Assembly (NCBI GenBank): GCA_002706365.1
Contig: PALM01000031.1
Coordinates: 1-36,209 of the forward strand
Length of the DNA stretch: 36,209 nucleotides
Direction: 5' to 3'
DNA from: Flavobacteriales bacterium
GTDB taxonomy: Bacteria > Bacteroidota > Bacteroidia > Flavobacteriales_E > Vicingaceae
This document shows positions 13,156 to 27,927 of this stretch, in pieces (position 1 is the first letter of the stretch; every line of letters starts with the position of its first letter). The position numbers were made by a program, and so were the translations under genes. The notes beneath the pieces are model-generated. The model did not search any database and had not been told where the DNA came from. It saw only the letters and a program-made list of their open reading frames with translations.

Positions 13156-14181
13156 TTAATTTTTTATCAAGTTAATTATTAGTTTCTGCATAGTTTCTCT
13201 TTGTTCAGGTAGACTCTGAGCAACTGCAAGAGCTAATGTGACCAAAGTATTTTCATTTATTTTTCTCACTCCATTTTTATTCAGGTGATGCCCGTTTTGT
13301 TCAAGAAACCATACAAACATAAATGAACCAATTCGTTTGTTGCCATCACTAAATGGATGACCTTTAATGATTGAGTATAGTAGTTGTGCTGCCTGTTCTT
13401 CTATTGTTGGATACGCAAGCTCTCCAAAAACTGTCTGGGAGATACTTCCTAAAATACCTCGGAATGAATCATCTTTCTCCTTTCCAAATAAATCGCTGGC
13501 CTCTCCCTTATCAACTAAATCAGATTTGAGCTGCTGGATTGCTTTTTTGACGTCATTGTATTTAATTACATAGATAAAGTCTTTGTTCAGATTTTCCGAT
13601 GACAGTTCGTCTTTGTCATATTTATCTAATAACTCGAAGGACTTTGAATAGTTTGAGATAATTGATAATAATCCATCAGTCAAGGTTTTCTGAGTTTGAA
13701 ATAACTCTTCATTAAGTTGGCTGATTTCTTGTTGTAATACTTCTACTTTCTGCTGTTCTGTTAGAAGTAGTTTTTGATTTATCGAGTATCCTTTGAGTAA
13801 GTATTCTTTTAGTCTTTCAGTTGCCCACTGTCTGAATTCAGTGGCTAGAGGTGATTTAACTCTATATCCAACCGATATTATCACATCAAGATTATAATGA
13901 AGAATTTCTCTTTCTATTTCTCTATCCCCTTCTTTTCGAACTTGTGCAATTTTTGCACTAGTTGCTTCTTGATCAAGTTCACCCTCTTTGAACGCATTCT
14001 TGATATGCCTATTAACAACGGTTCTATCTCTTCCAAAAATTTCAGCTATTTGAAGTTCAGTAGCCCAAATTGTGTCTGCACCTTTGTCAAGAATTACTTG
14101 ATATTCAGTAACTCCTTGAGCAGGTTTAAATGCTACAAGAGCTTTGCTATCATCATTAGCAATAGTAATTTCTTTACTCAT
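13156..14181 (-). CDS. RhuM-family N-terminus fused to Fic/Doc domain
   Basis: The 341-residue cytoplasmic protein has an N-terminal RhuM-type region (about residues 30-135), with TIWATELQIAEIFGRDRTVVN resembling a DNA-binding helix pair and HYNLDVIISVGYRVKS as the family hallmark. A coiled-coil-like linker (140-170) follows, then a Fic/Doc domain (about 200-341) with HPFSDGNKRIG at 275-285. Fic proteins transfer AMP or other phosphate-containing groups to target proteins. The motif keeps His275, Asp279, Asn281 and Arg283 but reads GNKRIG, not GNGRxxR, so the activity is uncertain. No separate antitoxin gene is next to it. Such fusions are known in databases as RhuM/Fic/DOC proteins. Confidence 0.86.
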   Translation of the reverse strand: MSKEITIANDDSKALVAFKPAQGVTEYQVILDKGADTIWATELQIAEIFGRDRTVVNRHIKNAFKEGELDQEATSAKIAQVRKEGDREIEREILHYNLDVIISVGYRVKSPLATEFRQWATERLKEYLLKGYSINQKLLLTEQQKVEVLQQEISQLNEELFQTQKTLTDGLLSIISNYSKSFELLDKYDKDELSSENLNKDFIYVIKYNDVKKAIQQLKSDLVDKGEASDLFGKEKDDSFRGILGSISQTVFGELAYPTIEEQAAQLLYSIIKGHPFSDGNKRIGSFMFVWFLEQNGHHLNKNGVRKINENTLVTLALAVAQSLPEQRETMQKLIINLIKN

Positions 14182-24362: not shown

Positions 24363-24764
24363 ATGAAAAAACTACTACTAATTGCCCTACTCTTAATTGG
24401 AGTTGGTGTAGGTGTTGGACTATATCTCTTCAATAAGAAGGTTCCCTCATTAGAGAACACCGAAGCGGCTTATACATTAACTGCAGATCAACTCTTCAAT
24501 GAGTTTGAAGCAGATGAATCAGCTGCTCAAACGAAGTATGTAGATCAGGTATTGGAAGTGAGCGGAACCATTGCCCGTACAAAATCCACCGATAGTATTT
24601 CTTCGATCGTCCTCATCGCAAAAAATGCAATGATGGGAGGTGTGAATTGTTCCTTCAATGGACCTATAACTGATTTTGCTGATGGCACACAAATTGTAAT
24701 CAAAGGTCGCTGTCAGGGCTACCTCATGGATGTGGTCCTAAATAATTGTGTGATAGTTGAATAA
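24363..24764 (+). CDS. Membrane-anchored OB-fold (tRNA_anti-like) protein
   Basis: A 133-residue protein with an N-terminal signal anchor (residues 4-24) and a C-terminal OB-fold like the tRNA_anti-like family common in Bacteroidetes: DQVLEVSGTIARTKST, SSIVLIA, then GTQIVIKGRCQGYLMDVVLNNC. The biochemical role of such proteins is unknown; despite the family name they are not known to bind tRNA. It ends 13 bp before the next gene and probably begins the cytochrome/YceI operon. Confidence 0.82.
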   Translation: MKKLLLIALLLIGVGVGVGLYLFNKKVPSLENTEAAYTLTADQLFNEFEADESAAQTKYVDQVLEVSGTIARTKSTDSISSIVLIAKNAMMGGVNCSFNGPITDFADGTQIVIKGRCQGYLMDVVLNNCVIVE

Positions 24765-24777
24765 CTCCTATTTCAAA

Positions 24778-25131
24778 ATGAATTCAAAAGGCATCATTCT
24801 TGGAATGATCTGCCTTGCTTTATCTTCATGTTATTATGATAAGGAGGATTTATTATACGGAAATGATGATTGTGTGGTGCAGTCGGTGAGTTTCGCCAAC
24901 GATATAGAACCAATAATCAGTAATTCCTGTGCTAAAAGTGGTTGCCACGTACAGGGTGGCTCAGGAAATGGGATCTTCGATTCCTATGCGGCTATAAAAG
25001 CCAAAGTAGACAACGGCGCCTTAAGAGAAAGAGTGGTCGTACAGAGGACAATGCCTCCGGATGTACCCTTAACTAACTGTCAGATCAAGTATATAGAACA
25101 ATGGCTCAATGATGGAGCTCCAAATAACTAA
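24778..25131 (+). CDS. Predicted lipoprotein cytochrome c-like protein with CX4CH motif
   Basis: A 117-residue protein with a lipoprotein signal (IILGMICLALSSCY, lipidated Cys18). The core has SCAKSGCH (Cys51, Cys56, His57), a CX4CH variant of the haem c site, and a downstream TMPPD (Met92) plus YIEQWLNDGAPNN, the same order as in the planctomycete-type cytochrome c domain. Covalent haem binding is likely but needs proof, since CX4CH is unusual. The start is the ATG at 24778, since the earlier frame start at 24757 is a TTG inside the previous gene. It lies 17 bp before the YceI gene. Confidence 0.8.
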   Translation: MNSKGIILGMICLALSSCYYDKEDLLYGNDDCVVQSVSFANDIEPIISNSCAKSGCHVQGGSGNGIFDSYAAIKAKVDNGALRERVVVQRTMPPDVPLTNCQIKYIEQWLNDGAPNN

Positions 25132-25148
25132 ACATTAAATCAAAACCA

Positions 25149-25700
25149 ATGAACACCATTAAAAAACTTAGTCTAGCGCTAATTGGCGGTCTATTCTGCC
25201 TAAACGCAAATGCGCAAAAGTATATGACACAGAATGGAACTATTCAGTTCTTCTCAGAAACTCCGGTTGAGAATATAGAAGCTGTGAATAATCAGGTTTC
25301 ATCTGTGATCGATATGGAGACGGGAAATCTTGTATTCAAGTTACTAATGAAGGCTTTTACCTTTGAGAAAGCGTTGATGCAAGAACATTTCAACGAAAAA
25401 TATGTGGAAAGTGAGAAATTTCCAAGATCCACTTTCAAAGGACAAATCAAGGATTTTGATAAATCCAAATACACAGAAGGCAAACATGAAGTGATTGTTG
25501 TTGGTGAACTTACCATCCATGGCGTAACTCAAAAAGTTGAAGCCCCTGGCACAATTGAGATCAAAGGAGATCAACTTATTGTAAACTCAACTTTTACTGT
25601 AGAAGTAGCTGATTATGAGATCAAGATCCCTTCAACGGTGAGCGACAATATTGCAAAGACCATTGAAATACAAGTAGAGGCCGAATATGACGCTATGTAA
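25149..25700 (+). CDS. YceI family periplasmic lipid-binding protein
   Basis: A 183-residue secreted protein with a signal peptide (residues 1-23, ending NANAQ) and a YceI lipocalin-like domain. The signs are FEKALMQEHFNEKYVESEKF, PRSTFKGQIKDFDKSKY, VVGELTIHGVTQKVEAPG and the ending ADYEIKIPSTVSDNIAKTI. YceI proteins bind isoprenoid or other hydrophobic molecules in the periplasm. It overlaps the DUF5777 gene by 14 bp and sits between two cytochrome-like lipoproteins, suggesting a shared redox or lipid-carrier role. Confidence 0.92.
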   Translation: MNTIKKLSLALIGGLFCLNANAQKYMTQNGTIQFFSETPVENIEAVNNQVSSVIDMETGNLVFKLLMKAFTFEKALMQEHFNEKYVESEKFPRSTFKGQIKDFDKSKYTEGKHEVIVVGELTIHGVTQKVEAPGTIEIKGDQLIVNSTFTVEVADYEIKIPSTVSDNIAKTIEIQVEAEYDAM

Positions 25701-26604
25701 GACATTGGTCTTCTTTCTGGGTTTTCTGTTGATTCCTTCTCATGCTCTTATGGCTCAGGATGATCTATTTGACATGCTTGAAGAGAATGAAGAACCAGTC
25801 ACGAATTATACATTCGCAACCTTTAAAACCACTAGATTAGTTAGCGGACATTCAGTAGAGACCAATTCTGCTGGTGTTCTTCAATTCATGATACAGCACA
25901 GGTTTAGCAGGATCAATGATGGTTGGAGAAGTCTATATGGAATTGATAATGCCACTATTCGTCTTGGTTTTGAGTATGGAGTTACTGATAACTTGAACAT
26001 TGGTATAGGAAGGTCTTCATTTGAAAAAGTCTTCGATGGTACCATCAAATATCGTTTTCTTCGACAGAAATCTGGTGCTGAGAATTTCCCATTCACGGCC
26101 ACTTGGGTGAGTTCAACATATATAAATTCTCTTGAATGGGCCAATCCTGAAAGAGAGAATTACTTCAGTTCTCGAATGAGCTTTCATCATGCGCTTTTAA
26201 TGGCTAGAAAGTTTGAAGGCTTTTCAATACAGTTGATGCCCACATTGGTGCATAGGAATCTTGTACTTACTGAAGAAGACCAAAACACCATCTTCTCGAT
26301 GGGAGCAGGAGCTTCTATACAGATAACAGGTTCTTTAAGAGCAAATATTGAATACTATTACCTTTTACCTGATCAAATTGCAAGTCCAGTGAATGGGGAG
26401 GAAGTTCAAAATGCATTGTCTATCGGGGTTGATATTGAAACTGGCGGACATGTTTTCCAATTGCACATAACCAACAGCAGAGGAATGACAGAAAGATACC
26501 TTGTTGGGGAAACTACCGGTAAGTGGCTTGATGGTGATATCCATTTTGGCTTTAATGTGAGTAGGGTATTCACATTGAGAAAACCTGAAGAGCTTAGAAA
26601 ATAG
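25687..26604 (+). CDS. DUF5777-like outer-membrane beta-barrel protein
   Basis: A 305-residue protein with a signal peptide (about residues 1-24, ALMAQ) and a beta-barrel-like sequence of alternating strands: TFATFKTTRLVSGHSVET, GVLQFMIQHRFSRI, NATIRLGFEYGVTDNLNIGI. These match the DUF5777 family as I remember it. The protein probably spans the outer membrane; substrate unknown. The start ATG overlaps the end of the YceI gene, so the two are translationally coupled. The gene is followed after 2 bp by a cytochrome-like lipoprotein. Confidence 0.83.
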   Translation: MTLCKTLVFFLGFLLIPSHALMAQDDLFDMLEENEEPVTNYTFATFKTTRLVSGHSVETNSAGVLQFMIQHRFSRINDGWRSLYGIDNATIRLGFEYGVTDNLNIGIGRSSFEKVFDGTIKYRFLRQKSGAENFPFTATWVSSTYINSLEWANPERENYFSSRMSFHHALLMARKFEGFSIQLMPTLVHRNLVLTEEDQNTIFSMGAGASIQITGSLRANIEYYYLLPDQIASPVNGEEVQNALSIGVDIETGGHVFQLHITNSRGMTERYLVGETTGKWLDGDIHFGFNVSRVFTLRKPEELRK

Positions 26605-26606
26605 TT

Positions 26607-27350
26607 ATGAAAACTTCATTTAGAATACTGGGATTATTGTGCCTCATAAGTCTTCTTTGGACTTGTGAGCACGATCCATTAGTTGAAGAGGGTCCAGAAT
26701 TCATTCCACCCCCACGGCCTCCTGAGATCCCTCATGATTCCACAGCAACTGTTTCTGATAGCTGTGCAGGTGATACGGTCTATTTTCAGAATACAATCCT
26801 TCCTTTATTGAACAGCAATTGCTCATTCAGTGCTTGTCATAGTAGTGAGAATACAAATAGACCAGATATTTTAGAGAAGTATAATCCTAGAAATTATGCA
26901 ACCATAATGAATTCTGATAAAGTAGACATTGATATAGGTGACCCCACTAAATCTGGGATTTATGAGGTTCTAGTTGACGACCCACCCGATAGAATGCCCA
27001 GAGGTGCTTATGGTCCCCTAAGCGCAGCTGAGATCGAGTCTATCAGACTTTGGATTGAGCAAGGGGCTAAAAATAATTCATGTAAAGACTGTGACACTAG
27101 CCAATATTCTTTCTCCATGAATATTTTACCTCTAATTCAAACCTATTGTCAGGGTAATTGTCATGCCGGACAATTAGAAGGTCCTTTCCCCTTGACTAAC
27201 CACATTGAAATTTCGGCTAAGGCAGGGAAAATTTATACGGCCATCAATCATACGGGAAGTATATACATGCCGAAGAATCTACCAAAACTAGACCCCTGCT
27301 ATATTTATCAAGTAAAAAGATGGATTGAAAGGAAAACTCCAAATGATTAA
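26607..27350 (+). CDS. Predicted lipoprotein with two haem c-like motifs (CX4CH and CX3CH)
   Basis: A 247-residue protein with lipoprotein signal (LCLISLLWTCEH, Cys20), a Pro-rich linker (PPPRPPEIP), and two repeated cytochrome-like units. Unit 1 has NCSFSACH (Cys72, Cys77, His78) with MPRGAYGPLSAAEIESIRLW behind it (Met130). Unit 2 has YCQGNCHAG (Cys181, Cys185, His186; CX3CH) with a downstream YMPKN (Met221). Both spacings differ from the standard CX2CH. It follows the DUF5777 gene by 2 bp and ends the transcript at a strong terminator. A diheme electron carrier is the likely role. Confidence 0.82.
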   Translation: MKTSFRILGLLCLISLLWTCEHDPLVEEGPEFIPPPRPPEIPHDSTATVSDSCAGDTVYFQNTILPLLNSNCSFSACHSSENTNRPDILEKYNPRNYATIMNSDKVDIDIGDPTKSGIYEVLVDDPPDRMPRGAYGPLSAAEIESIRLWIEQGAKNNSCKDCDTSQYSFSMNILPLIQTYCQGNCHAGQLEGPFPLTNHIEISAKAGKIYTAINHTGSIYMPKNLPKLDPCYIYQVKRWIERKTPND

Positions 27351-27367
27351 AATGACAAAACAAAAAA

Positions 27368-27395
27368 GGCGATGATTTCTCATCGCCTTTTTTTT
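27368..27395 (+). terminator. Rho-independent terminator
   Basis: GGCGATGA (27368-27375) pairs perfectly with TCATCGCC (27380-27387), loop TTTC, followed by eight T. It ends the OB-fold/cytochrome/YceI/DUF5777 transcript. Confidence 0.92.
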
Positions 27396-27492
27396 GCCCT
27401 AATTCTTAAAAGAGAAGATCAATAGACTGAACACAAAGGTTCTTTCCTCTGTTCTTAAGCCAAATACAACATTCTTTTGAAGCTTTTAGAAA

Positions 27493-27927
27493 ATGAAGAA
27501 GCACATTTTCTCGGCATTTGCAGTAGTCGTTTTATTCCAACTTGTTAGCTCTTGTACACATGAGCCTGTAGAAGGTCCTAATAGAGGCGGACTTAGAACT
27601 ACGCTTGACCCATCATGCGATCCTGGAATTGCATACTTCAAAGAGGAAACCGAACCTTTAATTCAAGCCAATTGTGCAGTTACAGGATGCCATGGAAATG
27701 GAAGTTCTAGCAGAGGTGTTAAGTTAGACAGCTATCAAGACATTATAAGTACAGCAGGTATAAATCTGAATAATCCCGAAAGTTCAAATCTCTATCAAGT
27801 TCTAATTGATGAGAATGAATCCAATCGAATGCCCCCAGCTCCAAGAGCCGCATTTACACAAGACCAAATCAATGAAGTATTGCTTTGGATAGAGCAGGGT
27901 GCTCAGAATAATGAATGTCAAGAATAA
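27493..27927 (+). CDS. Predicted lipoprotein cytochrome c-like protein with CX4CH motif
   Basis: A 144-residue protein with a lipoprotein signal (FAVVVLFQLVSSC, Cys21) and one cytochrome-like unit: NCAVTGCHGNG (Cys61, Cys66, His67), then NRMPPAPRAAF (Met113) and EVLLWIEQGAQNN. It is homologous to the first units of the two neighbouring cytochrome-like lipoproteins, so a duplication is likely. It has its own upstream gap (142 bp after the previous gene) and is closed by a terminator shared with the convergent ppiD. Confidence 0.8.
   Translation: MKKHIFSAFAVVVLFQLVSSCTHEPVEGPNRGGLRTTLDPSCDPGIAYFKEETEPLIQANCAVTGCHGNGSSSRGVKLDSYQDIISTAGINLNNPESSNLYQVLIDENESNRMPPAPRAAFTQDQINEVLLWIEQGAQNNECQE

Follow-up and report, generated by a model that had tools for sequence, protein, structure and literature searches.

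The 36,209-nucleotide (nt) stretch analyzed here, hereafter called the window (contig PALM01000031.1 of assembly GCA_002706365.1, positions 1 to 36,209 of the forward strand, from a Flavobacteriales bacterium of the Vicingaceae), contains a gene cluster for three putative c-type cytochrome lipoproteins, which we call CytA, CytB and CytC, a YceI-family protein and a member of the DUF5777 family. With a probability of roughly 0.6, we read the three as true His/Met-ligated cytochrome lipoproteins of an outer-membrane-associated electron-carrier module, in which CytA, YceI, DUF5777 and CytB would be expressed as one operon, the haems would be supplied by a System I*-type Ccm, and YceI would carry a quinone or another lipid. 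The computed support for this consists of the domain identity of the cytochromes, the interchangeable spacing of their haem-site cysteines, the conserved gene order, the barrel fold and the Ccm gene content. The features that matter most are as follows.

24778 to 25131, plus strand: CytA, putative mono-haem c-type cytochrome lipoprotein (ATG start; alternative TTG start at 24757)
24925 to 24948, plus strand: predicted haem site SCAKSGCH (CX4CH) of CytA, from the sequence; DNA pattern match at 24928-24948
25149 to 25700, plus strand: YceI-family isoprenoid/quinone-binding lipocalin-like protein (PF04264, 7.5e-15)
25687 to 26604, plus strand: DUF5777 predicted outer-membrane beta-barrel (PF19089, 1.1e-89; predicted structure)
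26607 to 27350, plus strand: CytB, putative two-domain (di-haem) c-type cytochrome lipoprotein (alignment of relatives; PSCyt1/CBB3 in relatives)
26817 to 26840, plus strand: predicted CytB haem site 1, NCSFSACH (CX4CH), from the sequence
27144 to 27164, plus strand: predicted CytB haem site 2, YCQGNCH (CX3CH), from the sequence
27493 to 27927, plus strand: CytC, putative mono-haem PSCyt1-type cytochrome lipoprotein, a separate gene (PF07635, 2.7e-06)
27670 to 27693, plus strand: predicted haem site NCAVTGCH (CX4CH) of CytC, from the sequence; DNA pattern match at 27673-27693

The four haem-like sites that the first-pass annotation had noticed in three lipoproteins are all present in the sequence, and every one is wider than CX2CH, with CX4 in CytA, CX4 and CX3 in CytB, and CX4 in CytC. 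The lipobox is recognizable by eye in all three proteins (..LSSC-YYDKED in CytA). The accompanying description of the haem pocket was partly right: a downstream Met is present at all four sites, but the motifs read MPP, MPR, MPK and MPP, and MPK had been overlooked; likewise, a W-[IL]-x-x-G-A helix is found at three of the four (QWLNDGA, LWIEQGA and LWIEQGA), whereas CytB site 2 has RWIERKT. In profile searches, a check proposed by the first-pass annotation, CytC passes PSCyt1 (PF07635, 2.7e-06, 28.3 bits with a cut-off of 22), CytB of the window stays below the threshold of Cytochrome_CBB3 (19.3 bits versus the 27 needed), and CytA gives no match. The likeness to planctomycete-type cytochrome c domains that the annotation had pointed out is supported by the relatives of CytB, 50 of 52 matching PSCyt1 and 51 of 52 matching CBB3 at E<=0.01.

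Relatives were collected from 141 stretches including the window, mostly surrounding high-scoring DUF5777 matches; DUF5777 was seen in 138 of them, and L063, L148 and L186 were dropped since our open reading frame calls showed none there. The reading frame calls, the profile labels and the definition of a run of genes (same strand, gaps <400 nt) followed mechanical rules of our own. The 203 proteins labelled as cytochromes comprise 118 with one site, 56 with two, and 29 that fit neither class and were not counted. When 52 of the 56 two-site, CytB-type proteins were aligned (A1), M130, M221, W149 and W239 were conserved in at least 90%, and in the alignment of 41 of the 118 mono-haem, CytA/CytC-type proteins (A2), the lipobox cysteine C18, M92, W109 and G113 were invariant. 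The invariant C/C/H of both alignments is there by construction, because the rows were chosen for bearing the motif. Without this selection, C-x2-5-CH is found in 199 of the 203 proteins labelled by the iterated CytA profile, and by lenient patterns M-[P/A] follows the site in 118/118 mono-haem proteins and W in 111/118. The four exceptions are a CX7CH protein (C-YGQGAQT-CH; L188:3061-3444) and a CX6CH protein (C-GSGDAA-CH; L195:5333-5749), both CytA relatives lying outside the 2-5 spacing filter, a cupredoxin-like protein (L162) and a decayed copy (L177). On these sequence data, it is most likely that CytA, CytB and CytC are real c-type cytochromes, with domains that look like the PSCyt1/CBB3 type.

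Profile comparison with solved structures points in the same direction. The CytB profile matched the di-haem cytochrome FoxE (PDB 5mab) at 6e-8 with domain 1 only. Its matches to cytochromes c6 (5.8e-4) and to bc1-type c subunits (7.8e-4) were weaker, and it is these latter domains that domain 2 resembles rather than FoxE. The CytA/CytC profile gave weak matches to the hydrazine synthase alpha subunit (5.3e-4), the one-haem cytochrome 4rlr (0.0013) and c6. When aligned to FoxE, to hydrazine synthase or to 4rlr, the sequences have their extra residues between the two cysteines. A phmmer search of the PDB with CytB alone returned one weak match, aligned from the site-1 cysteine next to the histidine and without the other motif cysteines.

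The wide spacing itself, which the first-pass annotation had called unusual, is certainly present, but it is not peculiar to this locus. The 118 mono-haem proteins divide into CX2CH (65), CX4CH (46), CX3CH (5) and CX5CH (2), and the two-site proteins have CX4CH at site 1 in 51 of 56 cases and CX2CH at site 2 in 55 of 56, the CX3CH of the window being the sole exception. On one DUF5777 FastTree (102 rows, with 7 independent pairs on supported branches), parsimony counts 15 changes between CX2 and CX4, and because of these repeated changes the spacing looks like a feature that is easily altered while the rest of the haem site stays constant. The DNA pattern TGYGCNNNNWSNGGNTGYCAY, which encodes C-A-x-[mostly S/T]-G-C-H and was matched on DNA regardless of open frames, has 235 matches across the 246 sampled genomes of the class to which the window belongs, compared to 15 (counted by eye) for the reversed pattern, and the wide motif is therefore beyond chance. 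Both matches in the genome of the window are CytA and CytC. The wide spacing thus looks like a natural variant, common in the class, of the ordinary haem site, and not like a new kind of protein: apart from their spacing, the proteins belong to a known kind. The separation of the haem cysteines by three or four residues would reflect a loop that tolerates insertions, the corresponding sites being CX2CH in many relatives.

The first-pass annotation had remarked that wider spacing needs a matching maturation capacity, and a plausible system is present. The genome of the window (G000) has CcmB, CcmC, CcmE and CcmF in one cluster (L199:4793-9161, contig C36), and its CcmE carries CPSKY in place of HxxxY. 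Of 60 genomes searched, 41 have CcmE, and the Cys-type CXXXY occurs in 30/30 CcmE loci read, including that of G000. No CcmH was found in the same 60 genomes by a search that matches 4 of 14 controls (E. coli and 3 others), the genome of the window being 95.7% complete. By gene content, its Ccm is of the System I* type, with a Cys-type CcmE and no CcmH found, as has been described for Archaea and Desulfovibrio in passages of PMC3601427 and PMC9084895. System I* may be general in the class outside lineages with CcsBA, the latter being our reading of the single PF01578 protein of ~1040 amino acids (aa) found in other relatives, with frame lengths for this classing taken from the matches listed.

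The haems of the cluster would most likely be attached by this System I*-type Ccm. A stronger claim is that the streamlined system, with its Cys-type CcmE and missing CcmH, is what permits wide spacing, and that CcsBA lineages are largely limited to CX2CH. The gene content just described fits this claim, and so does the C-A-x-x-G-C-H DNA pattern, which occurs in 123 of 202 Ccm-type and 4 of 29 CcsBA-type genomes (Fisher 1.5e-6), a raw association with GC content uncontrolled, in which the 202 Ccm-type genomes were classed by exclusion (G048, G075 and G258 among them have a single PF01578 match) and 30 loci were read for the type of CcmE; the pattern is also found in 3 of 5 genomes with both systems and 3 of 10 without a PF13442 match. 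Among mono-haem sites that are either CX2 or CX4, CX4CH makes up 45/95 with Ccm versus 1/16 with CcsBA (Fisher 0.002), five of the locus genomes, all without CcmE, having been assigned to CcsBA by genus. However, just four independent supported pairs on the DUF5777 tree differ in maturation system, and averaged over these, spacing follows the system in 1.0, opposes it in 0.2 and is the same in 2.8, while the genomes G007, G156 and G243 carry CX4CH sites although they were classed as CcsBA. The tree control thus leaves the link unestablished, the three genomes contradict an absolute rule, and System I* was rejected as a requirement for wide sites; as an account of why the sites are wide, it is on the unlikely side.

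We return to the electron-carrier module and its genes. DUF5777 is present in 216 of the 246 genomes. Of the 138 loci, 112 have a cytochrome in the same-strand run around it and 95 have YceI there (82 have both), the OB-fold protein is part of the run in 40 and a two-site cytochrome in 50. The gene set thus recurs in other Bacteroidota, which the first-pass annotation had suggested surveying. The closest named DUF5777 record, from a Bacteroidia metagenome-assembled genome (MAG), is 77% identical in its best segment. The predicted DUF5777 model (predicted local distance difference test (pLDDT) score 92.4) has 12 long strands and aligns with Z ~17 to the porin-type barrels FapF, KdgM and NanC, and the protein is confidently predicted to be a closed outer-membrane beta-barrel. 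The window YceI gave a weak match to the solved YceI structure 5ixg (E 0.0022). An outer-membrane or periplasmic redox module, as first proposed, is still the best reading. It is conceivable that the genes are merely neighbours, YceI and DUF5777 handling lipid and the cytochromes serving an unrelated respiratory chain, and at some loci DUF5777 indeed stands without YceI or without a cytochrome. Yet, the trio of CytA, YceI and DUF5777 is kept in many families of the class and, outside Bacteroidota, in a MAG of Candidatus Neomarinimicrobiota (L244), and the window genes are separated by 17, -14 and 2 nt, which makes such a coincidence unlikely.

Some of these loci have other redox proteins. Plastocyanin/azurin-type cupredoxins (PF00127) adjoin YceI-DUF5777 in two Pfam-checked relatives, together with CytA in one (L047:4404-5377) and with no cytochrome in the other (L043:7505-7882), and in this one checked locus, L043, the cupredoxin replaces the cytochrome. 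Loci L049 and L050 contain proteins of the same length as these cupredoxins, judged by length only. At L045:4892-5938, YceI is absent from the run and a protein of ~340 aa with two CXXCH motifs lies 3' of DUF5777, and by length and motifs the same pattern is seen in L036, L038-L040, L048, L051 and L059, which represent several genera of one family. Pfam analysis of ten neighbours identified the cupredoxins, a 348-aa Cytochrom_C/CBB3 protein with two CXXCH motifs, a metallophosphoesterase, DUF2141, DUF4271, a multihaem-like protein and Por_Secre_tail, and offered no substrate clue. Searches of the open-licence PMC literature returned no mention of DUF5777 or of the cluster as a unit. A table in PMC5429918, on iron limitation, lists a YceI-like gene, and this lead was discarded since the passage concerned has no tie to the cluster.

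The cysteines could also serve another purpose. The 118 mono-haem proteins contain a second cysteine pair, both members of which are present in 80, neither in 33 and a single one in 5, and because the two are mostly present or absent together, this pair, close to the Met loop, probably forms a disulphide that is optional. One CytA relative (L177:3610-4032), which stands next to an intact CAVPGCH copy, has truly decayed: it reads C-x4-C-Y and LPP, the His having been lost together with the Met. That the motif cysteines form disulphides or bind metal in degenerate cytochrome-like lipoproteins without haem would agree with this decayed relative and with the aberrant product, carrying an extra sulphur atom, that altered spacing yields in the E. 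coli Ccm according to a passage of PMC3601427, by which non-canonical spacing could hamper a standard Ccm, but it is very improbable, and its disulphide-only form was rejected, because the pocket Met and Trp are conserved and it is the other cysteine pair that shows the disulphide-like co-occurrence, the C..CH being moreover kept in nearly all labelled proteins and having the plain CX2CH form at the corresponding site in many relatives.

Several results weigh against true cytochromes in a redox module. CytA has no match of its own in the Pfam scan, and its CytA/CytC-type relatives match CBB3 in 14/41 and PSCyt1 in 3/41 cases at E<=0.01. For the predicted CytB model (mean pLDDT 83.7), Foldseek found no match in the PDB with E<=0.001. 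VIA-align, which compared 41 chains and listed 5 entries and so leaves room for other folds, placed domain 1 closest to FoxE with Z 8.8 (root-mean-square deviation 3.0 over 94 residues), below the caution level of ~13 that the tool sets for helical models, and next to hydrazine synthase with Z 7.7; the best match of domain 2 reached only Z 3.5. A cytochrome is absent from the run in 26 of the 138 DUF5777 loci, a few of these being truncated, and YceI in 43, so the partnership is not obligatory. Finally, YceI ligands vary, and a quinone in the YceI of the window is something we infer.

The intergenic distances are 17 nt between CytA and YceI and 2 nt between DUF5777 and CytB. YceI and DUF5777 are interleaved with the cytochrome genes, as had been noted, and their reading frames overlap by 14 nt. 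The suggestion that overlaps imply one transcript for the whole cluster has to be narrowed, as this is the sole clear overlap, and CytC, 142 nt downstream of CytB, is probably on a separate transcript because a hairpin with a T run sits between the two genes. This hairpin has 14 pairs followed by the T run on the plus strand; in the terminator scan it is listed for the minus strand alone, and the 5 terminator-like sites of that scan compare with 3.1 in shuffled sequences. The region from 24363 to 27927 had been described as cytochrome-like, which is true of the three lipoproteins but not of the gene at its left edge. These two features are:

24363 to 24764, plus strand: OB-fold protein (tRNA_anti-like, PF12869, 6.9e-22; Pfam) with an N-terminal hydrophobic stretch
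27362 to 27393, no strand assigned: intrinsic-terminator-like hairpin between CytB and CytC (sequence and terminator scan)

Further upstream are genes that we take to be glutamate-dehydrogenase-like and KBL-like, and a functional tie to these was dropped since the upstream genes differ at most other loci. The reading frame at 13156-14181 on the minus strand presumably encodes a RhuM/Fic-type protein.

The cluster would then be an outer-membrane-associated one-electron relay. YceI would hold an isoprenoid quinone or a similar lipid and perhaps feed the cytochromes, CytB and CytA would relay single electrons, and the 12-strand DUF5777 barrel would be the outer-membrane component. Covalent haem, the quinone, and the flow of electrons, its direction and its final partner are what we infer here. 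There is precedent for such a role, since a YceJ-YceI electron route has been proposed in Shewanella (passage in PMC8981235), and there is a solved structure of a YceI-type domain with ubiquinone-8. The lipoboxes give hints on topology. Our rule found a lipobox in 89/118 mono-haem and 37/56 two-site proteins, and at least 3 acidic residues at positions +2 to +9 after it in 66 of these 89 versus 2 of these 37. A common stretch in the CytA type is C-Y-Y-D-[N/K]-E-E-[E/D]-L (CYYDNEEEL type), unseen in CytB; the window copy reads C-Y-Y-D-K-E-D. This stretch resembles the lipoprotein export signals described in part of PMC5080379, although the position differs. This hints that CytA is outside and CytB inside. 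A conduit through the barrel would be speculative, because 12 strands make it, in our judgement, too narrow for a cytochrome. The most elaborate version, a Bacteroidota-wide outer-membrane electron module without multihaem cytochromes, running from quinone-loaded YceI to periplasm-facing di-haem CytB, through DUF5777 to CytA flipped to the surface by means of its export-type signal, with System I* haems of variable spacing, is quite unlikely.

A widespread outer-membrane redox module thus appears to be uncharacterized, at least under the name DUF5777. Because corresponding haem sites alternate between CX2CH and CX4CH, nature offers matched pairs of substrates for cytochrome biogenesis, with which one can address the stringency of Ccm and CcsBA towards cysteine spacing and a possibly greater tolerance of System I*, which lacks CcmH.

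With PSCyt1 (PF07635) and Cytochrome_CBB3 (PF13442), the window proteins share the C..CH, the downstream M-P and the W-I-x-x-G-A helix, whereas the solved relatives of this type in our alignments have CX2CH and the window proteins CX3/CX4CH. FoxE, the cytochrome with which Rhodobacter ferrooxidans SW2 oxidizes Fe(II), resembles CytB in having two haems or haem sites, in its Met ligands and in the kinship of domain 1, seen in the profile match and in the Z of 8.8. However, FoxE has CxxCH at both sites, and the Met of haem II precedes the CxxCH (passage in PMC10654088), while CytB of the window has CX4CH and CX3CH, and FoxE-type iron oxidation was not adopted for CytB because one domain only is akin and the motif differs. 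In haem maturation, the genome of the window is like Desulfovibrio and Archaea in its CXXXY CcmE and in the absence of a detected CcmH, here in Bacteroidota. In Cellvibrio japonicus Cbp2D, a YceI-like ubiquinone-8 domain is joined to c-type cytochromes (passages in PMC8981238 and PMC12542752), the same pairing of a quinone-binding fold with cytochromes as in the cluster, but Cbp2D is one multidomain protein with a carbohydrate-binding module, and the cluster encodes separate lipoproteins and an outer-membrane barrel. Porin-cytochrome (Mtr/Pcc) conduits likewise combine a beta-barrel with c-type cytochromes at the outer membrane; they use large multihaem cytochromes (passage in PMC4245776), whereas the cytochromes encoded here are mono-haem or di-haem by their number of sites, none being multihaem, and the barrel of this locus is a small one of 12 strands.

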